From: Thunnus maccoyii
Taxonomy: Eukaryota > Chordata > Actinopteri > Scombriformes > Scombridae
DNA length: 64,000 bases
NCBI RefSeq assembly: GCF_910596095.1
Contig: NC_056554.1
Span: 5,766,001-5,830,000, forward strand
Direction: 5' to 3'
Shown: piece after piece, positions 1 through 54,169 of the stretch
How positions within the stretch are numbered: the first letter of the stretch is position 1
Layout: each line of letters begins with the position of its first letter
Notes under the pieces: generated by a model
Database searches by the model: none
Seen by the model: only the letters and a program-made list of their open reading frames with translations
What the model was told of the DNA's origin: nothing
Program-made: the position numbers and the translations under genes

Positions 1-410
1 GCTCATTTCAAATTTTCCCTTCTGAACACCATCACAGAATTTAACTTCGCTGTTAGACCCGATCTTAACAGAGATACAGTAGATCTTGGTTCTGTTGACA
101 AGTCTCAACCAGAAAGTTACAGAGTCATGTTTTAATATATTGGAGCACTGCAGTGTGACTTCTTCACCAGACTGGACCTCCACAACCTGAGACTCAGACA
201 CTGAGACAGAGATCCAGCCTTAAACACACAGCAGAGACAAGTTGTTACAGGAAGATAAACGATACCTCTTAATGAATTTAACAGTGAGTATATAATCGTG
301 TCGGCTGAACATAGAATAACAACATTTGTAATGAAGTTGAGACTAATTCAAAGCCAATACTCACTAATGCTGCAGAGACTTAAAGCAGTTATCAAGGTAA
401 AGGTCTTCAT
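1..410 (-). CDS. VR1: V-set ITIM-family receptor, 5' part only (runs off the window start)
   Basis: Two exons are visible on the minus strand. The leader exon 410-365 begins at ATG (MKTFTLITALSLCSI) and ends at a GTGAGT donor in phase 1. The V exon begins at 218 and runs off the window. Its acceptor reads TTTAAG rather than the TTTCAG of most paralogues. The V exon opens with [15 protein letters not shown] and keeps LQC, W, the NRT sequon, YC and FCDG, all hallmarks of this cluster. The gene is nearly the same as VR4 and VR6, which are complete, so the missing part should hold the rest of the V domain, stalk, membrane span and tail. Role by inference: single-domain inhibitory immune receptor at the cell surface. 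The A at acceptor position -3 could weaken splicing. Confidence 0.8.
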
Positions 411-620
411 GGTGCGTATGACTGAAGCTCTGCAATGTCCGTACTTGATGTGTGACCCAGGAAGGTTGATTTCAACATAAAGAGGCGGGCTGTTTTCTTG
501 TTGCTTGTCCTGTTCCTCAAACTGACATTAATGCTTTCAGGAAAAGCATCTTGATGCAGATGTTTGCCTCAATGAGAACGAGACAAAGTTATTTTTCAGA
601 CAATGTGATTTAATAATAAA
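411..620. promoter_or_regulatory. VR1 promoter and 5' flank; GC box 482-489
   Basis: GAGGCGGG at 482-489 lies about 75 bp upstream of the VR1 ATG, next to a TATA-like CTTTATG on the minus strand. The same box is at 21386-21393 (VR4) and 31364-31371 (VR6). A weaker GAGGTGGGG form is at 12938-12946 (VR2), 17357-17365 (VR3) and 27308-27316 (VR5). VR7 has GAGGGGCGGG at 37233-37242, followed by a TTTATAG box. Conserved position in all members supports a proximal promoter; factor binding (Sp1/KLF-like) is inferred. Confidence 0.5.
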
Positions 621-2322
621 TTAAAGCTGCAAGCAGCGATGATCGGGCCCTCGCACCCCAGCGCATGTCGAAGTGACGCTCAGTCCAAGGGCTTTTGTCA
701 GTGACTTGTTGTGTAAAGTTTGAGGCAGATCCAACCGTGTACACTCAAGTTATATCAATTTCCTCTGTCATGGCGAAACATCAAAACTCAACGCCACGCC
801 ACGGCCAAACCATCATGATCATACACTAGTCTAGATGACACACACTGATTTTTAAGTCCTTACGATGGATTCTGTAGGAGGAGTTCTTTAAAATACAAGG
901 TATGCGAAATGGCCAAGAAAAGGCGAAAATGTACCATTTTTTTCAAGATGGCCGACTTCCTGTTCGACTTACAATAAGGCTTCAAGAGGCTTTTTTGTGC
1001 GTGTTGACATTATACATGTGCCCTGTGAATTTCATCTTTCTACGTTAATCTGGAAGGCGGGGCTGCAATTTTGAAATTTTAAAGGGGGCGCTGTTGAGCC
1101 ATTTTGCCACGCCCATTCAAAGCGACCACATAGGATTTTAGCTGACATCACTCTAGACATGTGTGTCAAGTTTCATGACTGTAGAGCAATCCCTTCTCCC
1201 TGAAAAACAGTATCATATTTCATGGCGAAGGATGTGTCGCCATGGTAACAGCATTCAGTTTTGGGTCATCAGCTGCCAAATGTAGCATCACCAAGGTCTT
1301 GTTTATTAGCTGACTTAATTTCAGGTGCATCAGCCAAATTTCCTAGGAGTAATTAGACAAAGTACGACGCATGATACTTCCTGTTGCCAGTAGGTGGCGC
1401 TATGACTTTCGCTAAATATGAGACTGAACATGTGTTCAGATTGGGACTCTTAACAAGCATATGAAATTTGGAAAAGATCAGACCACGTGGAGTCAAGTTA
1501 TAAGGCATTGAAATTTCATGGCGTCACATCGAAATTCGCCGCGTCGCCATGGCAACACCTTTCAACGAAGGGTCACCAACTTCATAATATAAGATCTCCA
1601 AGGTCTTGAGGCTATTCTCAGTAAATTTCAGCTGGATTCCATCACCGTGCTGCCCACAGGGTGTCAGAGCGTAAAACATGTAACTTCCTGTTGCCAGGAG
1701 GTGGCGCTATGACTCATATCCTGTATTGTCACATGGACCCGTTCAGGGCGGGACTCTTATGAAGCACAAAAGGTTTGGCTCTCTTAGGATCATGTATGCC
1801 GGAGTTATAGCCGTTTCATTTTTCATGGCGAAGGATCGAAATTCGCCGCCCAGCCACGCCCCCTAGGAAAGACTAATGAGAATTGTTTTAGCAACTTTTA
1901 ATCTCCTATGCCTGTAGATGATACGGACCGAATTTGAAAGTCCTGGGGTCAAATCTCTAGGAGGAGTTCGTTAAAGTATGCGGGCTGGAAATGACAAAAT
2001 CGGTGCAAAATTTCAACTTTGATACAAAATGGCCGACTTCCTGTTGGAGTTAGGCTATGTGTCCTTGAGACTTTTTGGTGCGTCTGGTCATGATACATAT
2101 GCATACCGAATTTCGTTCTCCTACGACAATCTGTATCGAGGGGCTCAATTTTCTTGACTTTCTAGGTGGCGCTGTCGAGCCATTTTGTCCCGCTTTATTT
2201 CGAGACCCATAAAATATCGAAATTTTCGCCAGTCCTGACATCTGTGCAAATTTTCATGAGTTTTCGTGCATGTTTAGGCCCTCAAAAATGCGTTTGTTTC
2301 GGAGGAATAATAATAATAATAA
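621..2322 (+). repeat. Unclassified interspersed repeat, copy 1 (GGGCCC-ended, about 1.7 kb)
   Basis: The element starts TTAAAGCTGCAAGCAGCG followed by GGGCCCTCGCACC. It runs to an AAT microsatellite that leads straight into copy 2. No transposase-like reading frame is seen; its short open frames are repeat-encoded noise. The 5' GGGCCCTCGCACC and the reverse complement of the 3' end (GGGCCCGAGCACC) form a short imperfect terminal inverted repeat, so a non-autonomous DNA transposon is possible. The insertion is absent from the paralogous positions near 21515 and 31494, so it is younger than the segmental duplications. Confidence 0.75.
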
Positions 2323-8305: not shown

Positions 8306-8346
<41 letters not shown>

Positions 8347-10696: not shown

Positions 10697-10819
10697 CTAT
10701 CTAGTGGCAGCATAAACAACATGAGTTTCCTCCTCTCTCTCTGCTGCTGGCCTCCTGCTTCTTATTGTTTTTGGAAGGAACCTCAGCACTGAAGAGTTCA
10801 GCTCATCTGAGCCCAAATA
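10697..10819 (-). CDS. Second terminal exon downstream of VR2 (relic or alternative last exon)
   Basis: Has an intact TACTGTAAATCAG-side acceptor in the same phase (0) as the VR2 terminal exon and an open frame of 40 residues: it starts [12 protein letters not shown] and ends VVYAATR before TAG. The first ITIM tyrosine is serine (LNSSVL). The second motif is intact. A minus-strand AATAAA lies at 10602-10597, about 95 bp past the stop, so it has its own poly(A) signal. It may be the leftover of a lost gene, or an alternative last exon for VR2. A copy lies at 15122-15244, and the same type ends VR10. Confidence 0.55.
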   Translation of the reverse strand, partial: YLGSDELNSSVLRFLPKTIRSRRPAAEREEETHVVYAATR

Positions 10820-11472: not shown

Positions 11473-12867
11473 CTATCTGGTGGCAGCATACACAACATTT
11501 GGCTCCACCGCTCTTCTTTTTGCTTTTTGACAGAAAGTCACTGCTGCATAGTTCAGGTCATCAGAGCCCAGATTCTGTAAATAAAAGTATTTACAGTCAG
11601 TCACCTTAACAAGTGGAAATGAAGAGAAAAACAAAACAATGGCTGGACATGATCTTAAATTATAAAACAAATACAAGTAAATGATCAAACTTTACTTGTA
11701 AAGTAAATGATAAAACATGATTCACCTCACTCTGTTGTCGATTCTTTTCTTCATTAGCTGCCAAATGAAAGAGACAATGGATCTAATCAGTTAATTGACC
11801 GTCATTATTCTAAAACTTTACTGTTATTCTGTTTTTGGCAAAAATGAAATTTAGTATTCTTCCAAAATATTCACACAACTTTAAAGAATTTGTGAAAAAA
11901 AAACTATAAACCAAATACAAGATCGAAACATTACCTCTCTGAAGTTTTCTGTTTTTAACAACCAGACCAATGATGACCGTAGTGTGGAGAACAAACAGAC
12001 TGCCCAAGATCACCAAGATCACACCCATCAGCTTTGTTGTTGCATCCGACTCTGCCACAAGAAAGATCTTTAATCAGACTGTTTCCCCTTTTCTAGCTAA
12101 AAATGACGAACATTAAAATGGACAAATGAATTTTGCACAATGAAATCTATAAGAGACTCTTACGTTTAGACTTTCTGCCAATGTCATCATATGATTCATC
12201 ATCACTGCCTTTTAATGAAATGAAGATACATTTTATTTTTATTTTGCTTTAAGAATGTGCATCAATATCTTGTTTTGACAATAATTAAATAGCCACATAT
12301 AGAAAGACATAAGAGAAGATTATACATTTCATAACATCTTACCTTCAACATTTAAATGTATGACACTTAAAAATGTCTGTCCGTTAATGTTAAATCCACA
12401 GAAATAAACCCCTGAGTCAGATAAATTCACCTCCTTAATGTTGAGAGAGACTGTGGAAATGTTGGAGCTCATTTGAAATTTTCCATTTTTAAATCCATCA
12501 CAGTATTTAACAGCTTTAGAGCTGGTCATAGATGAGATACAGCTGGCTTTGGTTCTGTTGACCAGTCTGAACCAGGATGTTGTTGCTTGAACTTTGTAAA
12601 TTGTGGTGCACTGCAGTGTGACGTTTTCACCAGACTGGACCTCCACAGTGTGAGACTCAGAAAGTGAGACAGAGATCCAGCCTGAAACACACAGCAGAGA
12701 CAACAAGAGATTTAGTTGTTATAGGAAGAAAAACAAAACCTCTTAATAAATTGAATAATGAGCAAAAACCATTAAATTGTGGCAGCAATGAAGTTGAGAG
12801 AAATGTAGTGGCAGTACTTACTGATGCTGCAGAGAATGAAAGCTGTTATCAAGGTAAGGTTCATCAT
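11473..12867 (-). CDS. VR2: complete single V-set ITIM receptor (226 aa, 6 exons)
   Basis: Exons on the minus strand: 12867-12822, 12681-12343, 12208-12164, 12051-11935, 11757-11726, 11574-11473. All have GT-AG borders and consistent phase, giving 226 residues. Signal peptide about 1-23. The V-set domain, about 24-128, has canonical cysteines C40 and C110 and an extra pair C63/C76, W52, the DSGVYFC motif and sequons NRT and NIS. Acidic stalk 129-146; membrane span about 152-175 with no charged residue. The tail has ITIM LNYAAV (Y202) and VVYAAT (Y222). Expected role by family logic: inhibitory receptor recruiting SH2 phosphatases such as SHP-1/SHP-2. The first of two adjacent ATGs was used. 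There is no FGxG J-like motif, unlike NITR V domains. Confidence 0.85.
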
Positions 12868-15121: not shown

Positions 15122-15244
15122 CTATCTAGTGGCAGCATAAACAACATGAGTTTCCTCCTCTCTCTCTGCTGCTGGCCTTCTGCTTCTTATTGTTTTTGGA
15201 AGGAACCTCAGCACTGAAGAGTTCAGCTCATCTGAGCCCAAATA
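15122..15244 (-). CDS. Second terminal exon downstream of VR3 (relic or alternative)
   Basis: Copy of 10697-10819: open frame with DELNSSVL and VVYAATR stop, intact acceptor, phase 0. Same two readings apply: a relic of a deleted gene, or an alternative last exon lacking the first ITIM tyrosine. Confidence 0.5.
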   Translation of the reverse strand, partial: YLGSDELNSSVLRFLPKTIRSRRPAAEREEETHVVYAATR

Positions 15245-15897: not shown

Positions 15898-17286
15898 CTA
15901 TCTGGTGGCAGCATACACAACATTTGGCTCCACCGCTCTTCTTTTTGCTTTTTGACAGAAAGTCACTGCTGCATAGTTCAGGTCATCAGAGCCCAGATTC
16001 TGTAAATAAAAGTATTTACAGTCAGTCACCTTAACAAGTGGAAATGAAGAGAAAAACAAAACAATGGCTGGACATGATCTTAAATTATAAAACAAATACA
16101 AGTAAATGATCAAACTTTACTTGTAAAGTAAATGATAAAACATGATTCACCTCACTCTGTTGTTGATTCTTTTCTTCATTAGCTGCCAAATGAAAGAGAC
16201 AATGGATCTAATCAGTTAATTGACCGTCATTATTCTAAAACTTTACTGTTATTCCGTTTTGGCAAACATGAAATTTAGTATTCTTCCAAAATATTTACAC
16301 AACTTTAAAGAATTTGTGAAAAAAAACTATAAACCAAATACAAGATCGAAACATTACCTCTCTGAAGTTTTCTGTTTTTAACAACCAGACCAATGATGAC
16401 CGTAGTGTGGAGAACAAACAGACTGCCCAAGATCACCAAGATCACACCCATCAGCTTTGTTGTTGCATCCGACTCTGCCACAAGAAAGATCTTTAATCAG
16501 ACTGTTTCTCCTTTTCTAGCTAAAAATGACTAACATTAAAATGGACAAATGAATTTTGCACAATGAAATCTATAAGAGACTCTTACGTTTAGACTTTCTG
16601 TCAATGTCATCATATGATTCATCATCACTTTTAATGAAATGAAGATACATTTCATTTTTATTTAGTTTTAAAAATGTGCATCAATATCTTGTTCTGACAA
16701 TAATTAAATAGCCACATATAGAAAGACATAAGAGAAGAATATACATTTCATAACATCTTACCTTCAACATTTAAATGTATGACACTTAAAAATGTCTGTC
16801 CGTTAAAGTTAAATCCACAGAAATAAACCCCTGAGTCAGATAAATCCACTTCCTTAATGTTGAGAGAGACTGTGGAAATGTTGGAGCTCATTTGAAATTT
16901 TCCATTTTGAAATCCATCACAGTATTTAACAGTTTCAGAGCTGGTCATAGTTGAGATACAGCTGGCTTTGGTTCTGTTGACCAGTCTGAACCAGGATATT
17001 GTTGCTTGAACTTTGTAAGTTTTGGTGCACTGCAGTGTGACTTCTTCACCAGACTGGACCTCCACAGTGTGAGACTCAGAAAGTGAGACAGAGATCCAGC
17101 CTGAAACACACAGCAGAGACAACAAGAGATTTAGTTGTTATAGGAAGAAAAACAAAACCTCTTAATAAATTGAATAATGAGCAAAAACCATTAAATTCTG
17201 GCAGCAATGAAGTTGAGAGAAATGTAGTGGCAGTACTTACTGATGCTGCAGAGAATGAAAGCTGTTATCAAGGTAAGGTTCATCAT
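15898..17286 (-). CDS. VR3: V-set ITIM receptor, stalk exon damaged but skippable
   Basis: Exons: 17286-17241, 17100-16762, 16474-16358, 16182-16151, 15999-15898. It is the tandem duplicate of VR2 (shift about 4.42 kb). The stalk exon, expected near 16629-16589, has lost 4 bp (GGCA) at its acceptor, so using it would shift the frame. The exon is symmetric (phase 1-1, 45 bp in VR2), so skipping it leaves an open frame of 211 residues with V domain, membrane span, ITIM LNYAAV and VVYAAT. V-domain cysteines and sequons are kept. Predicted product: the same inhibitory receptor with a shorter stalk. Confidence 0.75.
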
Positions 17287-19850: not shown

Positions 19851-21314
19851 TCACTCTGAGCTGTTGCTGTTGTTTCTTCTTGTCTGTCTGCTGGCAGCAT
19901 AAATAACATGAGTGTCCACTTCTCTCTGTGATGCAGGCCTCCTGCTTCTTATTGTTGTTGAATACAAAGTCAGTGCTGTGTCCTTCAGCTGATCAGAGTC
20001 CAGATTCTGTAAATAAAAGTACATGCAGTTCTACATGTCAAATAGCTGAGTTTGTGAGAAAAACACTATTGACTTGTGATGATTCTACAACCTTTGAAAT
20101 GATCAAACACAAAACTGGATTTACCTTGTTCACTAGTGAATTCTGCCCTTCAGTCGCAGCTGAGTGACAGAGACAATACATCTGATCAGTTAATAGACAG
20201 TTTGCTGTCATCACATTTTGGCTACAAGAAATGTTCTATTTTTTCATCATACTGACACTATTGAACATTTCCATAAGTGTTTAGTTTGAGTAATTCTCAT
20301 AAAGTACCTGTCTTAAGTTTCCTGATTTTAACCAGCAGACCAATGATGACCATTACAAGGAAAACAGTCAGACCAGCCAGGATCACACTCGTCAGCTTTG
20401 TTGTTGCATCAGACTCTTCTACAAGAAAGATCATTAAATCAGACTAAATTACTACCAGAAGTGACTTGAGATGAAAAACAAATCAAGCAGAGATGTTTCA
20501 TTTTCAAATGTTTGATAATCTGCATTTCTACATCTGCAAATCTTACTTTTAGATGTGTCGTCCACGTCATCATGTGATCCATCATCACTGCCTTTTAATG
20601 AAATGAAGATACATTTAGTCTTGATTTTGAGAGATTTGCATCACAATCATTGTTTGGTAATGTTTAAACTGTCACTTTGTTGCATATGTAGATATTAGAT
20701 AATAATTATGAAATATATTAACAATATAAACATAAATGACCAAACAAAATACAAGACTTAACATTAATCTTACCTTTAACTTTTAAATGTATCTCACTGA
20801 AAAGTACACGTCTACTTGTGAAGAATGCACAGAAATACAGTCCAGAGTCTGATGAATCCACTTGTTTGATGTTCAGAGAGACAGTAGAGATGTTGGAGCT
20901 CATTTCAAATTTTTCATTCTGAACACCATCGCAGAATTCAACTCTGCTGTCAGACCTGATCATAACAGAGATACAGTAGATCTTGGTTCTGTTGACAAGT
21001 CTCAGCCAGAAAGTTACAGAGTCATGTTTTAATATATTGGAGCACTGCAGTGTGACTTCTTGACCAGACTGGACCTCCACAACCTGAGACTCAGACACTG
21101 AGACAGAGATCCAGCCTTAAACACACAGCAGAGACAAGTTGTTACAGGAAGATAAATGATACCTCTTAATGAATTTAACAGTGAGTATATAAGTTTCAAT
21201 CGTGTCGGCTGAACATAGAATAACAACATTTGTAATGAAGTTGAGACTAATTCAAAGCCAATACTCACTAATGCTGCAGAGACTTAAAGCAGTTATCAAG
21301 GTAAAGGTCTTCAT
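19851..21314 (-). CDS. VR4: V-set receptor with only the distal tyrosine motif (about 244 aa)
   Basis: Exons: 21314-21269, 21115-20774, 20591-20547, 20418 (or 20415)-20308, 20159-20125, 20006-19851. The membrane exon has a tandem TAGAAG acceptor, giving 243 or 244 residues. The V domain reads ESQVVEVQ, LQCSN, NRTKIYC, FCDGV, DSGLYFC: four cysteines. Stalk GSDDGSHDD. Uncharged membrane span. In the terminal exon the first ITIM is lost (LKDTAL in place of LNYAAL), while VIYAAS remains, followed by a longer C-terminus ending NSNSSE. The V acceptor is TTTAAG, as in VR1. A minus-strand poly(A) signal lies near 19646. Probably still a surface receptor, but with altered signalling. Confidence 0.8.
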
Positions 21315-21393: not shown

Positions 21394-23228
21394 CTGTTTT
21401 CTTGTTGCTTGTCTTGTTCCTCAAACTGACATTAATGCTCTCAGGAAAAGCATCTTGATGCAGATGTTTGCCTCAATGAGAACGAGACAAAGTTCAGACA
21501 ATGTGATTTAATAATAAATAATCTTCAAGCCAAATTACATACAATATAGTGAAGAAAGATATATAGAATAAGAGTGTTTCCCCTAGGTTGATTGCTTTGG
21601 GGCGGTGGGGGGTGAAGGGTTGTGATGGCTGATGAAAAACTCAGAAGACACATTTCCACGACAACGATTTGGAAGACGAGTCTTTTCTTTGTCTTGAGAA
21701 GCTGCAGCATTTATTTATTTACTGCCAGACTGACAAGTTACTGCTAACCTTTTCATCTGCTCCACTCGCATTCACCGTCACTTTTCTGCCTCTCTCTCTC
21801 TGCACTCGCTCAAGTACACACGCTCATTTACACACTCACCACACACACACATTACACACTGCCCTATTCCTAAACAGAGCTACACTACGGCAGTGTGGCG
21901 CTGCTGAATGAATATTGGGGAAACACTGAGATATTTACCTCAATATCCAGTTTCTTGCTGTTTGTGTTTTTTCTATTATATCATTACACATTATAGCTGC
22001 TCCAAGACTAAACAGTGAGTGCTGACATGCTCTCCATGTTGTTGTTATCTCTGATTTCTTCTCAGAGCTGAATACAAACCTTGAGTGCACTTATCATTTT
22101 TAATTGTTTTTAATATTCTCATTCAACATTTCTTCTTTTACTGTCATTAATATTGTTGTTCTGTAACCTGTGAAACTAACTGTGGCCTAAACATTGTCAG
22201 TCATGTTCTAATGAAATAAACAATAAAAAGATTGGGAGCAAGAAAATCCTGAGAACATTTTTCAGGACCCGTTATTGTCGAGTGCTTTCATCTAAATTTC
22301 ACAAAGTACATGCTTCATATCTGGTTGTGTAAATATGAGTTTGTATATTTCAACAAGTGTGAAAGAAACTGTGAAGGTCAATTAGTCAGTTTGTATAAAG
22401 TAATGAGTGGAGTAGTGAAATATTGTCAGGAGTTGATATATACTGGTAACTTTTAACTAGACTTGGATGTTTGTGGTTATGGCTGAAAACCAGTCTTCCT
22501 GTGGTTTAGACTTTACTGTTGCTGTTTGTCGTCTGCTGGTTATTTCTACACTTTGTTTCTCCAAAACATCTGTACAAATACAGCTGCAGATTGTGTTTTA
22601 TCCTCACGAGCAAAGCAACAAGGCCGGTGTCACTTTTTCTTTTTAGACTTTCTCACAGATTAGTGAGTTCAGAAGCATCATAATGTGTTCAGACCACACT
22701 GTGTTGTCTCCACTGTGAAAGACTTCAACTCTCTCTATACTCTGTGTAGTCATCAGTGTCCAAAGGACAAGATAATAACAAGATTTTTGACAAGTGAAGG
22801 GAAAAATAAAAAGCCAACAAAACTCATCATTAACAAGCCGAAGTGCAGCTTCATGCTGTCTGTTGTGGCCTCTCTGCTCTGCATGTGTGTGTGTGTGTGT
22901 CGCTCAAACGAAACACAGCAGAGAAGAGAGATGGAGAAGCATCAGAGACTCTGAAGCACATAAAAAAACACAGCAATGTAACCTGTTCATTACATTTTTA
23001 TAGTGTTCTGACCTCACACCCTGCGTGCTGTTATTGGCTGGGGGCTACACACCCACTGCTCAAAGGCTGACGCCCAGAAGAATTCACACACCTCCACTGG
23101 GTCATAAGTGATGATTGAAAGTCATTACTTTAGTATGAGTCTATACATTGTTTGTTTTAGGAAAATCCTGCATAATATGCCTTTAAATATGTTGCACTGA
23201 CTATTACTGGATATTTGATTATGGAGAA
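21394..23228. other. Duplicated spacer, copy without the GGGCCC repeat
   Basis: Same as the unit-1 sequence 490-7690, minus the inserted repeats; it preserves both empty sites (near 21515 and 22103). GT microsatellite near 22885. No gene supported. Confidence 0.6.
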
Positions 23229-23505
23229 TCAACAAAAATACAACCCAGTGTCAGATAGATTCATAAGCCTGATTTTGAAAAATAAAATGTAGATATTGAA
23301 TGCCATTTCAAATGTTCCTTTTTGAACCCCATTACAGAAAGAAGCAGGCTCAATATAATTGTACAGAGAGGAAATACAACAGGGCTTGTTTCTGTTGACC
23401 AGTCTAAACCAGAATATCTGAGAGGAAGAAGTGGAAAAGTTGAAGCACAGCAGAGAGTCTTCTTCACCAAGCTGGACTTCCACAGTCTGAAACTCAGAGG
23501 CTGAG
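23229..23505 (-). pseudogene. V-domain relic a (no leader, no downstream exons)
   Basis: The V-like frame starts [18 protein letters not shown] and has WFRLVNR, PCCIS, SFCNG and DTGLYFC, then a stop directly after that cysteine. All four cluster cysteines remain, but the G strand, donor, stalk and membrane exons are missing, and no leader exon is found upstream. It is a truncated member of the receptor family. Its copy at 33220-33487 ends even earlier. Confidence 0.8.
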
Positions 23506-31371: not shown

Positions 31372-33219
31372 CTGTTTTCTTGTTGCTTGTCTTGTTCCTC
31401 AAACTGACATTAATGCTCTCAGGAAAAGCATCTTGATGCAGATGTTTGCCTCAATGAGAACGAGACAAAGTTCAGACAATGTGATTTAATAATAAATAAT
31501 CTTCAAGCCAAATTACATACAATATAGTGAACAAAGATATATTGAATAAGAGTGTTTCCCCTAGGTTGATTGCTTTGGGGCGGTGGGGGATGAAGGGTTG
31601 TGATGGCTGATGAAAAACTCAGAAGACACATTTCCACGACACCGATTTGGAAGACGAGTCTTTTCTTTGTCTTGAGAAGCTGCAGCATTTATTTATTTAC
31701 TGCCAGACTGACAAGTTACTGCTAACCTTTTCATCTGCTCCGCTCGCATTCACCGTCACTTTTCTGCCTCTCTCTCTCTGCACTCGCTCAAGTACACACG
31801 CTCATTTACACACTCACCACACACACACACACACACATTACACACTGCCCTATTCCTAAACAGAGCTACACTACGGCAGTGTGCTGCTGCTGAATGAATA
31901 TTGGGGAAACACTGAGATATTTACCTCAATATCCAGTTTCTTGCTGTTTGTGTTTTTTCTATTATATCATTACACATTATAGCTGCTCCAAGACTAAACA
32001 GTGAGTGCTGACATGCTCTCCATGTTGTTGTTATCTCTGATTTCTTCTCAGAGCTGAATACAAACCTTGAGTGCACTTATCATTTTTAATTGTTTTTAAT
32101 ATTCTCATTCAACATTTCTTCTTTTACTGTCATTAATATTGTTGTTCTGTAACCTGTGAAACTAACTGTGGCCTAAACATTGTCAGTCATGTTCTAATGA
32201 AATAAACAATAAAAAGATTGGGAGCAAGAAAATCCTGAGAACATTTTTCAGGACCCGTTATTGTCGAGTGCTTTCATCTAAATTTCACAAAGTACATGCT
32301 TCATATCTGGTTGTGTAAATATGAGTTTGTATATTTCAGCAAGTCTGAAAGAAACTGTGAAGGTCAATTAGTCAGTTTGTATAAAGTAATGAGTGGAGTA
32401 GTGAAATATTGTCAGGAGTTGATATATACTGGTAACTTTTAACTAGACTTGGATGTTTGTGGTTATGGCTGAAAACCAGTCTTCCTGTGGTTTAGACTTT
32501 ACTGTTGCTGTTTGTCGTCTACTGGTTATTTCTACACTTTGTTTCTCCAAAACATCTGTACAAATACAGCTGCAGATTGTGTTTTATCCTCACGAGCAAA
32601 GCAACAAGGCCAGTGTCACTTTTTCTTTTTAGACTTTCTCACAGATTAGTGAGTTCAGAAGCATCATAATGTGTTCAGACCACACTGTGTTGTCTCCACT
32701 GTGAAAGACTTCAACTCTCTCTATACTCTGTGTAGTCATCAGTGTCCAAAGGACAAGATAATAGCAAGATTTTTGACAAGTGAAGGGAAAAATAAAAAGG
32801 CAACAAAACTCATCATTAACAAGCCGAAGTGCAGCTTCATGCTGTCTGTTGTGGCCTCTCTGCTCTGCATGTGTGTGTGTGTCGCTCAAACGAAACACAG
32901 CAGAGAAGAGAGATGGAGAAGCATCGGAAACTCTGAAGCACATAAAAAAACACAGCAATGTAACCTGTTCATTACATTTTTATAGTGTTCTGACCTCACA
33001 CCCTGTGTGCTGTTATTGGCTGGGGGCTACACACCCACTGCCCAAAGGCTGACGCCCAGAAGAATTCACACACCTCCACTGGGTCATAAGTGATGATTGA
33101 GAGTCATTACTTTAGTATGAGTCTATACATTGTTTGTTTTAGGAAAATCCTGCATAATATGCCTTTAAATATGTTGCACTGACTATTACTGGATATTTGA
33201 TTATGGAGAATCAACATAA
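31372..33219. other. Duplicated spacer, unit 3
   Basis: Homologous to 21394-23228, including both empty repeat sites and a CA run near 31817. No gene supported. Confidence 0.6.
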
Positions 33220-33487
33220 CTACAACCCAGTGTCAGATAGATTGATAAGCCTGATTTTGAAAAATAAAATGTAGATATTGAATGCCATTTCAAATGTTCC
33301 TTTTTGAACCCCATTACAGAAAGAAGCAGGCTCAATATAATTGTACAGAGAGGAAATACAACAGGGCTTGTTTCTGTTGACCAGTCTAAACCAGAATATC
33401 TGAGAGGAAGAAGTGGAAAAGTTGGAGCACAGCAGAGAGTCTTCTTCACCAAGCTGGACCTCCACAGTCTGAAACTCAAAGGCTGAG
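33220..33487 (-). pseudogene. V-domain relic b
   Basis: Copy of relic a with stop just after DTGL, before the last conserved cysteine. No leader or downstream exons. 33488-34032 is spacer. Confidence 0.8.
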
Positions 33488-35780: not shown

Positions 35781-37171
35781 TCACTCTGAGCTGTTGCTGT
35801 TGTTTCTTCTTGTCTGTCTGCAGGCAGCATAAATAACATGAGTGTCCACTTCTCTCTGTGATGCAGGCCTCCTGCTTCTTATTGTTGTTGAATACAAAGT
35901 CAGTGCTGTGTCCTTCAGCTGATCAGAGTCCAGATTCTGTAAATAAAAGTACATGCAGTTCTACGTGTCAAATAGCTGAGTTTGTGAGAAAAACACTATT
36001 GACTTGTGATGATTCTACAACCTTTGAAATGATCAAACACAAAACTGGATTTACCTTGTTCACTAGTGAATTCTGCTCTTAAGTGGCAGCTGAGTGACAG
36101 AGACAATACATCTGATCAATTAATAGAAAGTTTGCTGTCATCACATTTTGGCTACAAGAAATGTTCTATTTTTTCATCATACTGACACTATTGAACATTT
36201 CCATAAGTGTTTAGTTTGAGTAATTCTCATAAAGTACCTGTCTTAAGTTTCCTGACTTTAACCAGCAGAACAATGATGACCATTACAAGGAAAACAGTCA
36301 GACCAGCCAGGATCACACTCGTCAACTTTGTTATTCCATCAGACTCACACTCACATTCTACAAGAAAGATCATTAAATCAGACTAAATTACTACCAGAAG
36401 TGACTTGAGATGAAAAACAAATCAAGCAGAGCTGTTTCATTTTCAAATGTTTGACAATCTGCATTTCTACATCTGCAAATCTTACTTATAGATGTGTCGT
36501 CATCATGTGTTCCATCATCACTGCCTTTTAATGAAATGAAGATACATTTTATTGTTATTTTGTATTAAAAATGTGCATCAATATCTTGTTTTGACAATAA
36601 TTAAATAGCCACATATAGAAAGACATAAGAGAAGAATATAAATTTCATAACATCTTACCTTCAACATTTAAATGTATGACACTTAAAACTGTCTGTCCGT
36701 TAATGTAAAATCCACAGAAATAAACCCCTGAGTCAGATAAATCCACTTCCTTAATGTTGAGAGAGACTGTGGAAATGTTGGAGCTCATTTGAAATTTTCC
36801 ATTTTGAAATCCATCACAGTATTGAACAGTTTTAGAGCTGTACATAGTTGAGATACAGCTGGCTTTGGTTCTGTTGACCAGTCTGAACCAGGTTGTCTTT
36901 GATTGGATGTTGGAAATGTTGGTGCGCTGCAGTGTGACGTTTTCACCAGGCTGGACCTCCACAGTGTGAGACTCGGAAAGTGAGACAGAGATCCAGCCTG
37001 AAACACACAGCAGAGACAACAAGAGATTTAGTTGTTATAGGAAGAAAAACAAAACCTCTTAATAAATTGAATAATGAGCAAAAACCATTAAATTCTGGCA
37101 GCAATGAAGTTGAGAGAAATGTAGTGGCAGTACTTACTGATGCTGCAGAGAATTAAGGTAAAGCTCTTCAT
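35781..37171 (-). pseudogene. VR7: decayed hybrid V-set receptor
   Basis: Exons: 37171-37138, 36997-36659, 36524-36486, 36357-36238, 36109-36055 region, 35936-35781. Faults: the leader exon is 12 bp short (MKSFTLILCSI); the first canonical V cysteine is arginine (LQRTN); the linker exon has a stop at its fourth codon (A-A-T-stop), which removes the tyrosine-motif tail. The stalk is 6 bp shorter and the membrane exon starts further upstream with CEC before the span. Like VR5 it joins a VR2-type V domain to a VR4-type 3' half. Splice sites look usable, so a tail-less protein is possible, but loss of the core disulphide favours a pseudogene. Confidence 0.75.
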
Positions 37172-38633: not shown

Positions 38634-40274
38634 TTATCTGGTGGCAGCATAAACAACACTTAGCTCCTCTCTTTCGGATGCAGGCCGGCGGTTTCTCTTT
38701 GGTTTCGGCTGGAAACTCAGCGCTGCGTAGTTCAGGTCATCTGAACCCAGATTCTGTAAATCACATTTTTACCATTAAATCACTATTTTGTAACAGTTTG
38801 TTTGTAGCTATACCTCAGACAAGTAAATGCTTCTAGCTAGTATGGTTATAAAGGCACAGCAGAAAGGCCCAATTTTCTGTCTCTTGGGGAAATATCTTCT
38901 AGTTGAAATGATGAAGCATTTCAACGATGTTTCAGAGGAGAAAAAGAACAAAATCACTGTGGGAAAGAAGGGGAAAAGTGTGGCTACCGCTAGCTTTTGT
39001 CTGACATTTTGAGTATGCCATATGCTGACAAAAATCACAAATTTTGCTCACTTTTCATGTCAATGAACCTAAACTCCCAGATTAAAGAAGATTACAGTTG
39101 AAATTAGAGTTTAAAAGTCTAAATTAACAGGGTTCATTTTAGTGTAGATGAAAAAAGGCTATTATGAGTAGGTGCTTGTAAAGATTACTAACACACTTAT
39201 TATGTGTAGAGTTTATATAATAAATGTGAAGTTTTGGCTCACCTTGTTTCTTTCTGGCTGTGGTTCTTTATTGGCAGCTAAATGACACAAAACAAAGTCT
39301 GAATACTTAATTATCACTCTATATGCTTTGGATTTGTTCTTCATGTTGACACAATTTACAAGACGGTGTGCTACAAATGATAAACTAGCTGTACCTGTTT
39401 TAAGTTTCCTGATTTTAACAGCCAGAACAATGAGGACTATAGTGAACAAGAGAATCACAACACCCAGGACCACACTCATCAGGACTGTTCTCCCATCACA
39501 CTCTTCTACAAGAAAAAATGATTAGACTTTGTTTCTTTAGTCTGGTGGTAACATGCACAATGACAAAATCGTGAGAGAAGGAAGGAGAATCTTACTTTTA
39601 GACTTAAAATTTTCTTCATCATCAGACTCAGAATCATCAGAATCACCATTACCTTTAAATAGATTGGGATAAAATGATCTGACACATATTGGTTTCCTGT
39701 TTTCATGCCATATTGTGATAAAAACAATTGACTCTAAATATGATGAGAAACAGTCAACTGAAAGAGATAAGACATGACCACAATCTTACCTTGAATGCTT
39801 AACTCTGTTACATCTGCAATGACTGTGTGTAAGTTGATGTAAAATCCACATAAATACAGCCCAGAGTCAGATAAATCCACTCGCTTGATTTTAAGAAAGA
39901 CAGTTGAAATGTTGGAAAGCATTTCAAATTTTCCGTTCTGAAATCCATCACAGAGTGAAGCTTTGTCTGCAGACTCGTACATAGAGGAGATACAGCTGGC
40001 TTTGGTTCTGTTGACCACTCTGAACCATTCTGTCATAGATGGAGCTCTGGAAATGTTGGAGCACTGCAGTGTGACTTTTTCACCTGGCTGGACCTCCACA
40101 GTCTGAAACTCAGAAACTGAGACAGAGATCCAGCCTGAAACACACAGCAGAGACAACAAGAGATTTACTCTTCAGCTGATGAAGCAACAACAGTACATCT
40201 AAATGAATTCAACACTACTGGTACTTACTGAGGCTGCAGAGAAGTAATGCTGTTTCTAAGGTGAAGCTCTTCAT
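38634..40274 (-). CDS. VR8: complete V-set receptor with two tyrosine motifs (237 aa)
   Basis: Exons: 40274-40229, 40134-39790, 39652-39596, 39505-39395, 39277-39243, 38753-38634. Leader [16 protein letters not shown] domain about 24-130 with C40, C63, C77, C111 and W52, sequons NIS, NRT, NIS. Long acidic stalk [14 protein letters not shown], then a juxtamembrane KECDG cysteine (C152) absent from the VR2 type, which could pair two chains. Uncharged membrane span about 157-179. Tail: ITIM LNYAAL (Y207) and VVYAAT (Y233) before TAA. Poly(A) signal at 38524-38519, 110 bp past the stop. The tandem TAGAAG acceptor allows one residue less. Predicted inhibitory receptor. Confidence 0.87.
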
Positions 40275-40429: not shown

Positions 40430-40776
40430 AAGCCAACCTCAGGTTCTGTGACTTTCAACTGCACGGTACAAACTGGAACCTGTGATGGAGAACGCAGAGT
40501 TTACTGGTTCAGACACGGATCTTTCAGTCTAAACATGTCTCCACAGCACAGTCTCCATCACAGAGTTGTGTTTATCATATTGAGAAAATGAACCTGATCT
40601 CCTCTGATGCTGGAACTTACTACTGTGCTGTGGCCTCCTGTGGGGAGATACTGTTTGGAAGTGGAAGCGAGCTGCTCATCAAAGACGATGTTGAAGACCC
40701 AATGACACAGATTAGAGTCTTAGTCTGGCTGTCCATCATTAGATCTGGGATCCTCTTGTGCTTGAACTATTGTTGA
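40430..40776 (+). pseudogene. NITR-like second Ig domain plus membrane segment, broken (unit 1)
   Basis: The exon opens EANL as in 57054 onward. An internal deletion of about 46 bp then removes the A-B strands, and a stop follows. Later it reads QSCVYH, SSDAGTYYCAVASCGEILFG and a J-like FGSGSELLIKD, then VEDP and a membrane span containing arginine (WLSIIRSGILL) ending LNYC. Family knowledge: NITRs have such J-like motifs, and a charged residue in the span marks activating forms that pair with adaptor chains. No first V exon or leader is present. Confidence 0.75.
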
Positions 40777-42008: not shown

Positions 42009-43652
42009 TTATCTGGTGGCAGCATAAACAACACTTAGCTCCTCTCTTTTGGATGCAGGCCGGCGGTTTCTCTTTGGTTTCGGCTGGAAACTCAGCGCTG
42101 CGTAGTTCAGGTCATCTGAACCCAGATTCTGTAAATCACATTTTTACCATTAAATCACTATTTTGTAACAGTTTGTTTGTAGCTATACCTCAGACAAGTA
42201 AATGCTTCTAGCTAGTATGGTTATAAAGGCACAGCAGAAAGGCCCAATTTTCTCTCTCTTGGGGAAATATCTTCTAGTTGAAATGATGAAGCATTTCAAC
42301 GATGTTTCAGAGGAGAAAAAGAACAAAATCACTGTGGGAAAGAAGGGGAAAAGTGTGGCTACCGCTAGCATTTGGCTGACGTTTTGAGTATGCCATATGC
42401 TGACAAAAATCACAAATTTTGCTCACTTTTCATGTCAATGAACATAAACTGCCAGATTAAAGAAGATTACAGTTGAAATTAGAGTTTAAAAGTCTAAATT
42501 AACAGGGTTCATTTTAGTTTAGATGAAAAAAGGCTATTATGACTGCGTGCTTGTAAAGATTACTAACACACTTATTATGTGTAGAGTTTATATAATAAAT
42601 GTGAAGTTTTGGCTCACCTTGTTTCTTTCTGGCTGTGGTTTTTTATTGGCAGCTAAATGACAAAAGACAGTCAGTCTGAATACTTAATTATCACTCTATA
42701 TGCTTTGGATTTGTTCCTCATGTTGACACAATTTACAAGACGGTGTGCTACAAATTATAAACTAGCTGTACCTGCTTGAAGTTTCCTGATTTTAACAGCC
42801 AGAACAATGAGGACTATAGTGAACAAGAGAATCACAACACCCAGGACCACACTCATCAGGACTGTTCTCCCATCACACTCTTCTACAAGAAAAAATGATT
42901 AGACTTTGTTTCTTTAGTCTGGTGGTAGCATGCACAGTGAGAAAATCGTGAGAGAAGGAAGGAGAATCTTACTTTTAGACTTAAAATGTTCTTCATCATC
43001 AGACTCAGAATCATCAGAATCACCATTACCTTTAAAAAGATGGGGATAAAATGATCTGACACATATTGGTTTCCTGTTTTCATGCCATACTGTGATAAAA
43101 AAAAATTGACTCTAAATATGATGAGAAACAGTCAACTGAAAGAGATAAGACATGACCACAATCTTACCTTGAACGCTTAACTCTGTTACATCTGCAATGA
43201 CTGTGTGTAAGTTGATGTAAAATCCACAGAAATACAGCCCAGAGTCAGATAAATCCACTCGCTTGATTTTAAGAAAGACAGTTGAAATGTTGGAAAGCAT
43301 TTCAAATTTTCCGTTCTGAAATCCATCACAGAGTGAAGCTTTGTCTCCAGACTTGTACATAGAGGAGATACAGCTGGCTTTGGTTCTGTTGACCACTCTG
43401 AACCATTCTGTCATAGATGGAGCTTTGGAGATGTTGGAGCACTGCAGTGTGACTTCTTCACCTGGCTGGACCTTCACAGTCTGAAACTCAGAAACTGAGA
43501 CAGAGATCCAGCCTGAAACACACAGCAGAGACAACAAGAGATTTAATCTTCAGCTGATAAAGCAACAACAATACATCTAAATGAATTCAACACTACTGGT
43601 TCTTACTGAGGCTGCAGAGAAGTAATGCTGTTTCTAAGGTGAAGCTCTTCAT
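42009..43652 (-). CDS. VR9: complete V-set receptor with two tyrosine motifs (237 aa)
   Basis: Exons: 43652-43607, 43512-43168, 43029-42973, 42882-42772, 42652-42618, 42128-42009. V domain [11 protein letters not shown] with LQCSN, NRTKASC, SLCDGF, DSGLYFC. The stalk is acidic and followed by KECDG. Tail LNYAALSF and VVYAATR. Differs from VR8 by few residues, for example K for E in the first strand and YFC for YLC. Intact. Confidence 0.86.
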
Positions 43653-45348: not shown

Positions 45349-47193
45349 CTATCTAGTGGCAGCATAAACAACATGAGTTTCCTCCTCTCTCTCTGCTGCA
45401 GGCCTCCTGCTTCTTATTGTTTTTGGAAGGAATCTCAGCATTGAAGAGTTCAACTCATCAGAGCCCAAATCCTGTAAATCAGAGAATTTGAGTCACATAC
45501 TGTATCTCACATATCATAGCTAAGATTTTCAGGAACCAACACAGAATCTGTACTGGTCCATGGTTCCTGTAGACAACACTGGTAGCAAAACTGTTTTTCA
45601 GGACTTGGCTGAAGGCTAAATCTGGTGTTTCAGTCACATACTATACACCTACACTGCTTTGCACCAACTAACTTAAAGTAAGGATTCATCATAGCTTTGT
45701 CAGGGTTATTTAAAAAATTAAAACACCGATAAATGATTTAAACCAAAGTTCAATATTTGTTCACACCAACATAAAATATCAGCAATAATGACTGCAGTTC
45801 AAAAATAGAACCATCACCACTACATCTGTGAGCACTTATTTTCTAACTGTTTGTAGTATATTTATAATGTCACATCAGAGACTGTTAGGAAGGAGGTTGA
45901 GCTGTAGATCCAACAACATTTTGCTCTCCATCAGGTCTAATAGCAATCAAGCTTAATTAAAGCTTATGCGTCATATGATGAATGCCTGCCTGACTGGAAT
46001 TTGTCACCTGCTGCACAGTGAGACAAAGATCATTAATAGTTAAATAGTCAGTTCACCTTCTTTCTTCCTGGCTGCCTTTCTTCTTTAGCCGCTAAATGAC
46101 AAAAGACAAAATGCCAGAGTTTGATTAGTTCACAATCATTAAAAGAACACTTGTATTTGTCGTTGTGTAGCAGATTTTATCCAGCTGTACCTGTCTGAAG
46201 TTTCCTGATTTTAACAGCCAGAACAATGAGGACTATAGTGAGTGAGAGAGTCACAACACCCAGGACCACACTCATCAGGACTGTTCTCCCATCACACTCT
46301 TCTACAATAAAAAATGATTAGACTCTGTTTCTTTAGTCTGGTGGCTTAAGATGTTGTAAATATTCAAATTACTGGTTCCGTTGTAACATGCACAATGACA
46401 AAATCTTGAGAGAAGGAAGGAGAATCTTACTTTTAGACTTAAAATGTTCTTCATCATCAGACTCAGAATCATCATAATCACCATTACCTTAAAAAAGATG
46501 GGGATAAAATGATCTGACACATATTGGTTTCCTGTTTTCATGCCATACTGTGATAAAAAAAAATTGACTCTAAATATGATGAGAAACAGTCAACTGAAAG
46601 AGATAAGACATGACCACAATCTTACCTTGAACACTTAACTCTTTTACATCGGCAATGACTGTGTGTGTGTTGATGTAAAATCCACAGAAATACAGCCCAG
46701 AGTCAGATAAATCCACTCGCTTGATTTTAAGAAAGACAGTTGAAATGTTGGAACGCATTTCAAATTTTTCGTTCTGAAATCCATCACAGAGTGAAGCTTT
46801 GTCTCCAGACATGTACATAGAGGAGATACAGCTGGCTTTGGTTCTGTTGACCACTCTGAACCAGTCTGTCTGAGTTGGAGCTCTGGAAATGTTGGAGCAC
46901 TGCAGTGTGACTTCTCCACCCGGCTGGACCTCCACAGTCTGAAACTCAGAAACTGAGACAGAGATCCAGCCTGAAACACACAGCAGAGACAACAAGAGAT
47001 TTAATCTTCAGCTGATAAAGCAACAACAGTACATCTAAATGAATTCAACACTTACTAATTTGCAAGTTTAAATCCTGGTGGTTTACTGGATGAAATAGAG
47101 GTTTGTTTTATATTTGGTGCTTAGAATAATTTAATACTGGTACTTACTGAGGCTGCAGAGAAGTAATGCTGTTATTAAGGTGAAGCTCTTCAT
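45349..47193 (-). CDS. VR10: V-set receptor with swapped terminal exon (238 aa)
   Basis: Exons: 47193-47148, 46970-46626, 46487-46431, 46301-46191, 46091-46057, 45471-45349. Ectodomain and span are VR8-type ([11 protein letters not shown], four cysteines, KECDG). The terminal exon is the type seen at 10697-10819: [12 protein letters not shown] replaces the ITIM and only VVYAATR remains. The switch on the 3' side falls close to the stop codon (about 45345). On the other side it falls in the last intron or linker exon ([12 protein letters not shown], near 46040-46190). The leader intron has about 100 bp extra near 47055-47145. Intact frame. Confidence 0.82.
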
Positions 47194-48933: not shown

Positions 48934-50577
48934 TCATCTGGTGGCAGCATAAACAACACCTAGCTCCTCTCTTTTGGATGCAGGCCGGCGGTTTCTCTTT
49001 GGTTTCGGCTGGAAACTCAGCGCTGCGTAGTTCAGGTCATCTGAACCCAGATTCTGTAAATCACATTTTTACCATTAAATCACTATTTTGTAACAGTTTG
49101 TTTGTAGCTATACCTCAGACAAGTAAATGCTTCTAGCTAGTATGGTTATAAAGGCACAGCAGAAAGGCCCAATTTTCTCTCTCTTGGGGAAATATCTTCT
49201 AGTTGAAATGATGAAGCATTTCAACGATGTTTCAGAGGAGAAAAAGAACAAAATCACTGTGGGAAAGAAGGGGAAAAGTGTGGCTACCGCTAGCATTTGG
49301 CTGACGTTTTGAGTATGCCATATGCTGACAAAAATCACAAATTTTGCTCACTTTTCATGTCAATGAACCTAAACTGCCAGATTAAAGAAGATTACAGTTG
49401 AAATTAGAGTTTAAAAGTCTAAATTAACAGGGTTCATTTTAGTTTAGATGAAAAAAGGCTATTATGACTGCGTGCTTGTAAAGATTACTAACACACTTAT
49501 TATGTGTAGAGTTTATATAATAAATGTGAAGTTTTGGCTCACCTTGTTTCTTTCTGGCTGTGGTTTTTTATTGGCAGCTAAATGACAAAAGACAGTCAGT
49601 CTGAATACTTAATTATCACTCTATATGCTTTGGATTTGTTCCTCATGTTGACACAATTTACAAGACGGTGTGCTACAAATTATAAACTAGCTGTACCTGC
49701 TTGAAGTTTCCTGATTTTAACAGCCAGAACAATGAGGACTATAGTGAACAAGAGAATCACAACACCCAGGACCACACTCATCAGGACTGTTCTCCCATCA
49801 CACTCTTCTACAAGAAAAAAATGATTAGACTTTGTTTCTTTAGTCTGGTGGTAGCATGCACAGTGAGAAAATCGTGAGAGAAGGAAGGAGAATCTTACTT
49901 TTAGACTTAAAATGTTCTTCATCATCAGACTCAGAATCATCAGAATCACCATTACCTTTAAAAAGATGGGGATAAAATGATCTGACACATATTGGTTTCC
50001 TGTTTTCACGCCATATTGTGATAAAAAAAATTGACTCTAAATATGATGAGAAACAGTCAACTGAAAGAGATAAGACATGACCACAATCTTACCTTGAACG
50101 CTTAACTCTGTTACATCTGCAATGACTGTGTGTAAGTTGATGTAAAATCCACAGAAATACAGCCCAGAGTCAGATAAATCCACTCGCTTGATTTTAAGAA
50201 AGACAGTTGAAATGTTGGAAAGCATTTCAAATTTTCCGTTCTGAAATCCATCACAGAGTGAAGCTTTGTCTGCAGACTCGTACATAGAGGAGATACAGCT
50301 GGCTTTGGTTCTGTTGACCACTCTGAACCATTCTGTCATAGATGGAGCTTTGGAGATGTTGGAGCACTGCAGTGTGACTTCTTCACCTGGCTGGACCTTC
50401 ACAGTCTGAAACTCAGAAACTGAGACAGAGATCCAGCCTGAAACACACAGCAGAGACAACAAGAGATTTAATCTTCAGCTGATAAAGCAACAACAATACA
50501 TCTAAATGAATTCAACACTACTGGTTCTTACTGAGGCTGCAGAGAAGTAATGCTGTTATTAAGGTCAAGCTCTTCAT
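48934..50577 (-). CDS. VR11: complete V-set receptor with two tyrosine motifs (237 aa)
   Basis: Exons: 50577-50532, 50437-50093, 49955-49899, 49807-49697, 49577-49543, 49053-48934. Near twin of VR9; the stop is TGA where others have TAA. V domain, stalk, juxtamembrane cysteine, uncharged span, LNYAAL and VVYAAT are all kept. Flanks and introns are almost the same as VR9, so this is a recent duplicate or the product of conversion. Confidence 0.86.
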
Positions 50578-52282: not shown

Positions 52283-53954
52283 TTATCTGGTGGCAGCATA
52301 AACAACACCTAGCTCCTCTCTTGCGGATGCAGGCCGGCGGTTTCTTTTTGGTTTCGGCTGGAAACTCAGCGCTGCGTAGTTCAGGTCATCTGAACCCAGA
52401 TTCTGTAAATCACATTTTTACCATTAAATCACTATTTTGTAACAGTTTGTTCGTAACTTTTTCGTAGTAAATGCTTCTAGCTAGTATGATTATAAAGGCA
52501 CAGCAGAAAGGCCCACTTTTCTCTCTCTTGGGGAAATATCTTCTAGTTGAAATTATGAAGCATTTCAATGATGTTTCAGAGGAGAAAAAGAACAAAATCA
52601 CTGTGGGAAAGAAGGGGAAAAGTGTGGCTACTGCTAGCATTTGTCTGACATTTTGAGTATGCCATATGCTGACAAAAATCACAAATTTTGCTCACTTTTC
52701 ATGTCAATGAACCTAAACTGCCAGATTAAAGAAGATTACAGTTGAAATTAGAGTTTAAAAGTCTAAATTAACAGGGTTCATTTTAGTGTAGATGAAAAAA
52801 GGCTATTATGACTGCGTGCTTGTAAAGATTACTAACACACTTATCATGTGTAGAGTTTATATAATAAATGTGAAGTTTTGGCTCACCTTGTTTCTTTCTG
52901 GCTGTGGTTTTTTATTGGCAGCTAAATGACAAAAGACAAAGTTTGAATACTTAATTATCACTCTATATGCTTTGGATTTGTTCATGTTGACACAATTTAC
53001 AAGACAGTGTGCTACAAATGATAAACTAGCTGTACCTGTTTTAAGTTTCCTGATTTTAACAGCCAGAACAATGAGGACTATAGTGAACAAGAGAATCACA
53101 ACACCCAGGACCACACTCATCAGGACTGTTCTCCCATCACACTCTTCTACAAGAAAAAAATGATAGAAATAGACTTTGTTTCTTTAGTCTGGTGGCTGAA
53201 GACGTTGTAAATATTCAAATTACTGGTTCCGTTGTAACATGCACAATGAAAAAATCTTGAGAGAAAGAAGGAGAATCTTACTTTTAGACTTAAAATGCTC
53301 TTCATCATCAGACTCAGAATCATCAGAATCACCATTATCTTAAAAAAAAAGATGGGGATAAAATGATCTGACACATATTGGTTTCCTGTTTTCACGCCAT
53401 ACTGTGATAATAAATTTGATTGTAAATATGATGAAAAACAGTAACTGAAAGAGATAAGACATGACCACAATCTTACCTTGAACGCTTAACTCTTTTACAT
53501 CGGCAATGACAGTGTGTGTGTTGATGTAAAATCCACAGAAATACAGCCCAGAGTCAGATAAATCCACTCGCTTGATTTTAAGAAAGACAGTTGAAATGTT
53601 GGAACGCATTTCAAATTTTCCGTTCTGAAATCCATCACAGAGTGAAGCTTTGTCTCCAGACTCGTACATAGAGGAGATACAGCTGGCTTTGGTTCTGTTG
53701 ACCACTCTGAACCAGTCTGTCTGAGTTGGAGCTCTGGAAATGTTGGAGCACTGCAGTGTGACTTCTCCACCAGGCTGGACCTCCACAGTGTGAGGCTCAG
53801 AAACTGAGACAGAGATCCAGCCTGAAACACACACAAACAACAATTTACTCTTCAGCTGATAAAGCAACAACAGTGCATCTAAATTAATTCAACACTACTA
53901 GTACTTACTGAGGCTGCAGAGAAGTAATGCTGTTATTAAGGTGAAGCTCTTCAT
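52283..53954 (-). CDS. VR12: complete V-set receptor with two tyrosine motifs (237 aa)
   Basis: Exons: 53954-53909, 53821-53477, 53338-53282, 53146-53036, 52921-52887, 52402-52283. V domain [36 protein letters not shown]. The stalk exon has a long T tract before its acceptor. Tail LNYAALSF and VVYAATR stop TAA. It is the outermost unit: homology ends at about 54105 and no NITR-like fragment follows. Confidence 0.86.
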
Positions 53955-54169
53955 TGTGCGTATAACCATGTCTCAGCATGGGCACTTTATGTCACTGCAA
54001 GGGGTTTTCATTGGAAAGGGGCGGAGTTCTGAATAGTTCATGCTAGAAAGCTCAAATTGCTCGCCACCAAATATCTGTACCAGCTGCCTCAAAGAATTTC
54101 AGACAGCATACAATTTCTCAATTACTCCCCTAGTTTTGTACAGACATCATGGAAGGAATCCTTACCTTA

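Follow-up and report, generated by a model that had tools for sequence, protein, structure and literature searches.

NITRs have been compared to natural killer (NK) receptors, as their possible counterpart in fish, with proposed origins from CD8, CD28/CTLA-4 or T cell receptor (TCR)-like molecules, and their inhibitory function has been confirmed in vitro (PMC2442602). In medaka they form two classes, on chromosomes 18 and 10; nearly all carry a J or J-like end on the V domain and/or an I domain, and some are without the I domain (PMC2442602). The NILT receptors of salmon, according to passages of their published description, have six exons, phase 1 at introns 1–4 and phase 0 at the last intron (5), a 46-base leader exon, a connecting-peptide exon and a second V-domain cysteine pair spaced as CX3C, CX6C or CX7C (PMC3022915). 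Here we describe an array of single-V receptor genes in a 64,000-nucleotide stretch of the Thunnus maccoyii genome (the window; C22:5766001-5830000, in which C22 is the contig that carries it, from an assembly of 782 Mb in 54 contigs). We label this receptor family VR, and the data on it come from this one fish genome. At a probability of roughly 0.55, we read VR as a NITR-lineage branch that expanded in tandem and turned into a single-V receptor: J-less, I-less and mostly inhibitory, with diversifying BC and C′–C″ loops, the latter bracketed by extra cysteines.

Searching the window with two V-domain queries (tblastn) returned 12 open V exons, all on the minus strand and the leftmost truncated by the window edge, together with three broken V exons near 7.6, 23.5 and 33.5 kb. 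All 23 VR members that we scanned matched a V-set domain, with E-values down to 4.3e-14, which excludes chance. The left part of the array is made of repeats of H-type genes, Q-type genes and a broken V; the right part holds five F-type genes at a spacing of 3.4–3.5 kb, four of which have a NITR I-domain piece beside them on the opposite strand (40–54 kb), and two NITR remnants follow at 56–61 kb. Among the matches listed in a genome search with one VR V domain, VR is confined to C22 5.63–6.06 Mb, except for one broken fragment at 8.43 Mb. In that interval we modelled 51 VR V entries (43 open, seven with stops and one truncated), leaving out three additional broken matches; the genome-wide counts are lower bounds because the search scores best candidates only.

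Modelled VR genes run in the order leader, V, acidic stalk, transmembrane (TM) segment, C1 exon of about 11 residues and tail. Read base by base, the gene at 50.4 kb has six exons and a 46-base leader, with all introns in phase 1 except the fifth, which is in phase 0, and the gene at 12.7 kb has the same phases (1-1-1-1-0); phases were read directly in these two genes only and were imposed by the modelling script in the others. The complete six-exon set is present in 32 of the 43 open genes and in 10 of the 12 in the window, the left-edge gene having been completed from locus L066 outside the window. The 17.1 kb gene has a four-base loss at the stalk exon, and in the 37.0 kb gene Arg replaces the first V cysteine and the leader was not found in modelling. 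Four V cysteines were identified by pattern in 40 of the 43 open exons, or 41 with the exon at 6030822, which the pattern missed and which was read by eye. The two extra cysteines (positions Cys48 and Cys62 in the V domain of the 50.4 kb gene) flank the C′–C″ loop at a spacing of CX12-13C; this arrangement was not seen in 29 NITR V domains of the same genome, scored for the CDG-type pattern, or in the NITR10/11 alignment.

An earlier note on this DNA, made from the letters alone, had described at least twelve single-V receptors interleaved with NITR fragments, all with one six-exon plan in fixed phases, four V cysteines, no J-like motif, an acidic stalk and a two-tyrosine, ITIM-bearing tail (immunoreceptor tyrosine-based inhibitory motif). 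The tandem array, its interleaving with NITR pieces, the stalk and the missing J motif are all borne out, and the exon plan and the four cysteines hold for most members, the 37.0 and 17.1 kb genes being exceptions to one or both. The tail did not survive as a feature of every member. We scored tails by the ITIM consensus, taking in each gene the tail exon nearest the membrane. A canonical ITIM, LNYAA[L/V], occurs in 27 of the 43 open genes (25 tabulated, plus the nearer tail exons of the 12.7 and 17.1 kb H-type genes), so that calling all members ITIM-tailed is wrong. Another 13 tails, mostly of the LKDTAL type, have tyrosines, none in a canonical ITIM; the 47.0 kb tail has lost its ITIM tyrosine and keeps a single one; and two tails were not found in modelling. 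Six of the 11 tails that lie within the window carry LNYAA[L/V], and four other genes there (21.1, 27.1, 31.1 and 37.0 kb) have a pair of tail tyrosines, neither of them in a canonical ITIM. Two observations on individual tails stand apart from these counts. In H-type genes a second tail-like exon (LNSSVL...VVYAAT) lies about 0.8 kb past the first and might provide alternative tails without an ITIM. One further member (L019, C22:5931171) has a Lys in mid-membrane in its TM exon, and no ITIM tail was found for it in modelling; it is possibly an activating form, or one in decay.

To place VR among V domains, we built a profile from 42 of the 43 open exons (5649943, with an odd start, was left out) and ranked 15 groups against it with HHalign, C22 NITR being represented by eight rows. 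Three NITR groups headed the ranking: C8 NITR (79.3), C22 NITR (71.5) and catfish NITR (66.4). They were followed by C7 V (64.8), C18 V (59.8) and TCR alpha (56.9), with light-chain V at 30–33. Starting from the C8 NITR profile, C22 NITR (85.2) and VR (84.0) scored nearly equally. Catfish structures led the searches of the PDB as well: NITR10 was the top phmmer match of the 12.7 kb V domain (E-value 5e-11), and NITR10/11 supplied nine chains in the top 22 of Foldseek, ranks 1–3 included. When the genome was searched with a VR V domain, the nine best matches listed outside VR were C22 NITR V exons, and NITRs made up 37 of the 63 non-VR matches by manual count. With a C8 NITR V domain as the query, the first match outside C8 is VR, and the 54 matches listed comprise 26 C8 NITR, 21 C22 NITR, six VR and one on C12. 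One C8 NITR tail resembles three of the six VR tail types more closely than any of 1,000 shuffles.

The array also lies among NITRs. NITR I domains occupy C22 5.83–6.24 Mb and interleave with VR at 5.91–6.06 Mb; the window itself holds fragments and remnants only. We counted 53 C22 NITR I-domain exons by eye among rows of at least 80 bits.

We then compared nonsynonymous (pN) and synonymous (pS) differences, and their rates (dN/dS), in 41 of the 43 open exons, with loop limits fixed after the alignment had been viewed and gene conversion ignored. In the 14 H-type V exons, the three loops gave a pN of 0.151 against a pS of 0.043, with pN above pS in all 2,000 column bootstraps; the framework gave 0.024 against 0.021. 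Circular shifts of the loop labels produced a difference as large in one of 115 cases. By loop, dN/dS was 4.3 for BC, 14.3 for C′–C″ (scored as residues 51–61, between Cys48 and Cys62, with very few silent changes) and 1.6 for FG. The 13 Q-type exons behaved similarly, with pN above pS in the loops in 1,889 of 2,000 bootstraps and none of 115 shifts as large. Taken together, the profile ranking, the PDB leads, the genome searches with V domains, the location among NITRs, the intron phases of one NITR gene (L039, compared below), part of the tails and the loop change are the grounds on which we favour a NITR-lineage origin.

Several results weigh against that origin. The C22 NITR profile scores higher with TCR alpha (107.7) than with VR (78.7); in VIA-align NITR10/11 tie, to within 1 Z, with TCR and antibody chains, a family's absence from that list being no exclusion; and by mean single-sequence bits C7 V (32.4) stands just above catfish NITR (31.9). 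A degenerate J pattern found in eight of nine C22 and 16 of 20 C8 NITR V domains occurs in none of the 43 VR exons. (The strict form, FGxG, discriminates less: among the 43 it matches only 5683745, at its mutated CDG site, and it is equally missing from those 29 NITR V domains.) Modelled VR genes have no I domain; a stalk exon comes after V. Two VR tail types resemble the C8 NITR tail only weakly (1 and 7 of 1,000 shuffles scored as high) and the type without an ITIM does not resemble it at all (629 of 1,000), and in a genome search with that tail all 26 matches lay on C8 and none in VR. Beyond the I fragments, seven NITR stretches and 15 VR loci had no flanking DNA in common. Selection on the loops is also weaker in nine mixed V exons (loop dN/dS 1.1, 1.5 and 1.0) and in the five F-type exons (BC 1.65, FG 0.31, framework 1.35). 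In a tree of 38 V-domain rows (including 14 VR exons, 11 C22 or C8 NITR rows, the two window remnants and catfish NITR10/11, and leaving out L045, L046 and L049 as near copies, L040 as broken and L054 as I-only), VR forms a single branch (bootstrap 93, Shimodaira–Hasegawa-like approximate likelihood-ratio test 97), and this branch is long (stem 1.09) and without a settled placement. Approximately unbiased (AU) tests rejected none of eight groupings (all p > 0.13), giving p = 0.377 for VR with all NITRs and p = 0.33 for NITRs without VR. VR V domains thus do not fall inside a named family with strong support. One C7 V exon (L059, C7:35064713) has a mean single-sequence score to VR as close as that of NITRs.

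Because of the C7 V score, the nearness of TCR alpha, the tree, the missing J and I features and the tail results, we grade the sequence likeness of VR to NITR as good, short of proof. To the earlier note the array had looked like a separate inhibitory family, matched to no named one, that grew within a NITR neighbourhood. Its single V branch, its NITR surroundings and its mostly inhibitory-looking tails all stand; its lack of a match among named families is not supported as worded, given the NITR groups that lead the profile, structure and genome searches.

The best-surviving alternative, which we regard as somewhat unlikely, is that a separate single-V family, be it NILT, CD300/pIgR-like or of some unnamed kind, came to lie inside the NITR cluster and expanded there as VR, its NITR likeness being a general V likeness. 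The long separate branch, the missing J-like end and I domain and the parity of C7 V with catfish NITR all speak for it, as do the six exons, phases 1-1-1-1-0, 46-base leader and connecting-peptide exon, which are those of salmon NILT in the available part of its description (PMC3022915). As NILT has the same six-exon plan, the plan cannot decide between NITR and NILT. A separate family sits poorly with the leading NITR ranks in the profile and PDB searches, with the pIgR profile score of 41.3, which comes from mammalian pIgR pieces without outer strands, and with a cysteine spacing of CX12-13C in VR against the CX3C, CX6C or CX7C described for NILT (PMC3022915). That the array consists mostly of decaying duplicates of little function is improbable. 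Seven of the 51 V entries do have stops, six of them one common TGA, 13 of 43 tails have no canonical ITIM, and in the window one V cysteine is lost and one stalk exon is damaged; against this, six exons are kept in 32 of 43 open genes, and an excess of pN confined to loops is unexpected in debris. Viral capture was considered and rejected: 17 viral-contig stretches matched a pattern, and none was a relative.

ITIM tails recruit SHP phosphatases. Under a NITR-lineage origin, the I domain would have been lost, with a short acidic stalk exon in its place, and the J-like glycines at the V end would have gone. A disulfide between Cys48 and Cys62 would staple the C′–C″ loop, which resembles complementarity-determining region 2 (CDR2), and the BC and C′–C″ loops would meet a fast-changing ligand. 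The phosphorylated ITIM would then recruit SHP phosphatases and restrain the leukocyte, as NITRs do, so that VR would work like an inhibitory NITR by analogy; members without an ITIM may be weak, decoy or decaying. More tentatively, VR could be an unnamed germline family whose hypervariable CDR2-like loop is stapled by a second disulfide; it would add a further large repertoire of inhibitory receptors to that of the NITRs and, with a short F–G hairpin and no J, would have shifted recognition from CDR3 to BC and the stapled C′–C″ loop. A NITR-linked family that is J-less or has four V cysteines did not appear among the open-access papers listed in literature searches, subscription papers being mostly outside that coverage. 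With 43 open single-V genes beside 53 C22 NITR I-domain exons, the locus would show the variable site of a V scaffold shifting from a CDR3-like to a CDR2-like loop; the VR branch would widen the germline inhibitory repertoire there, and the bracketed C′–C″ loop gives a testable prediction of the ligand-binding site.

Table 1. Coordinates of VR genes, broken V exons and NITR pieces in the window (positions counted from its first letter).
Feature	Span	Strand	Parts and remarks
Q-type V exon	1..218	-	cut at left window edge, remainder outside (L066)
Second, more distant tail-like exon of 12.7 kb gene	10700..10816	-	LNSSVL...VVYAAT; similar one 15125-15241
H-type gene (12.7 kb)	11473..12867	-	leader 12867-12822, V 12681-12343, stalk 12208-12164, TM ~12051-11935, C1 ~11757-11726, LNYAAV tail 11574-11473; modelled, phases read base by base
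H-type gene (17.1 kb)	15898..17286	-	V 17100-16762, stalk with four-base loss, TM 16474-16358, C1 16182-16151, LNYAAV tail 15999-15898
Q-type gene (21.1 kb)	19851..21314	-	leader 21314-21269, V 21115-20774, stalk 20591-20547, TM 20418-20308, C1 20159-20125, tail without canonical ITIM 20006-19851
Broken V	23184..23504	-	TGA after F-strand cysteine
H-type gene (27.1 kb)	25853..27237	-	V 27051-26713, stalk 26578-26534, TM ~26418-26311, C1 26162-26128, tail without canonical ITIM 26008-25853
Q-type gene (31.1 kb)	29829..31292	-	V 31093-30752, stalk 30569-30525, TM 30396-30286, C1 30137-30103, tail without canonical ITIM 29984-29829
Broken V	33166..33486	-	two stops
H-type V (37.0 kb)	35781..36997	-	first Cys = Arg, leader not found; V 36997-36659, TM 36357-36238, tail without canonical ITIM 35936-35781
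F-type gene (40 kb)	38634..40274	-	leader 40274-40229, V 40134-39790, stalk 39652-39596, TM 39505-39395, C1 39277-39243, LNYAAL tail 38753-38634
NITR I-domain fragment	40439..40776	+	further ones 43817-44154, 47358-47441, 50742-50825
F-type gene	42009..43652	-	leader 43652-43607, V 43512-43168, stalk 43029-42973, TM 42882-42772, C1 42652-42618, LNYAAL tail 42128-42009
F-type gene (47.0 kb)	45349..47193	-	leader 47193-47148, V 46970-46626, stalk 46487-46431, TM 46301-46191, C1 46091-46057, one-tyrosine tail (LNSSML) 45471-45349
F-type reference gene (50.4 kb)	48934..50577	-	leader 50577-50532 (46 nt), V 50437-50093, stalk 49955-49899, TM 49807-49697, C1 49577-49543, LNYAAL tail 49053-48934; read base by base
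F-type gene	52283..53954	-	leader 53954-53909, V 53821-53477, stalk 53338-53282, TM 53146-53036, C1 52921-52887, LNYAAL tail 52402-52283
NITR gene remnant	56280..57377	+	V exon with FGEG J-like end, frameshifted I domain
NITR gene remnant	60485..61327	-	V exon ending in FGQGT J, I exon interrupted by a stop, VIYAAV in a tail-like piece

Beside the genes themselves, the four opposite-strand NITR I-domain pieces in Table 1 go back to one piece that was captured in the F-type repeat unit and duplicated along with it; the NITR remnant at 57 kb is 83% identical to the 50.4 kb unit over 337 bases. A broken V was likewise copied along with the array, as the two window copies listed and at C22 5686158, 5702986, 5756992 and 5773943, and one TGA after the F-strand cysteine is common to six modelled copies. 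At the left end of the window, an element of about 1.5 kb occurs as two direct copies and one inverted copy (608-2151, 2309-3853 and 4999-6543) with 99–100% identity, ending near GCACCGACCGGTGC-type sequence; it is a mobile or satellite-like repeat of recent origin.

C8 carries another NITR cluster, a large one, at 24.07–24.53 Mb, with V and I in separate exons (read in L052), resembling medaka chromosome 10. Of 13 NITR genes fetched from C22, 12 have V and I in a single open frame (L040 is broken), and in L051 the two are separate. The C22/C8 split recalls the two medaka classes described above. MEN1, at C22 1.75 Mb, is 4 Mb from the array and agrees with medaka chromosome 18 at chromosome level only.

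The FG loop of CD28 and CTLA-4 carries a motif of the MYPPPY type, also seen in the chains we compared. That VR belongs to this family is very improbable. Both have a single V, no J motif and a second cysteine pair in about the same place (one cysteine in the C′ region and one ahead of strand D, as CDG in CD28); five of 23 VR members have a weak ICOS V-set_2 match; and in medaka NITR24 shows linkage to CTLA4, CD28/CTLA4 having been proposed as the source of NITRs (PMC2442602). On the other side, HHalign aligned only 22 columns, around the F strand, for a score of 29.5 where C8 NITR reached 79.3, PPP is found in none of the 43 VR exons, the cysteine spacing is 17 in CTLA-4 and 19 in CD28 against 12–13, and a genome search with ICOS V-set_2 gave four weak matches, none above the cut-off. 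CD300/pIgR-like receptors combine a V-set with an extra cysteine pair, as VR does, and place that pair elsewhere (C to the C′ side in the pIgR pieces). Salmon NILT comes close in its exon plan, which also counts against a NITR origin, and in its leader, connecting-peptide exon, ITIM tail and second V cysteine pair; in the rows of its description that were seen, it has several ITIMs and a long last exon (294–327 bases), whereas VR has one canonical ITIM and a short exon (PMC3022915). VR is not filed as NILT because the cysteine spacing differs, a distinction drawn from that published description only. With NITRs, VR has in common a fish gene cluster, a V-set, a type I membrane plan, ITIM tails, tandem duplication and the TM–C1–tail exon phases 1-1-0; intron phases around leader, TM, C1 and tail agree between VR and one NITR gene (L039), which has no stalk exon, and catfish NITR10/11 (PDB 2qhl, 2qqq and others) are the best structure matches to the VR V domain. 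VR clusters with authentic NITR I domains, the rule used for medaka NITRs (PMC2442602), has an N-terminal V-set in all 23 members scanned and carries an ITIM or ITIM-like motif, canonical in 27 of 43; because the J-like end was looked for and is absent, it is not filed as a strict NITR. VR is thus set off from NITRs by its missing J-like end and I domain, its added acidic stalk exon and its CX12-13C pair.

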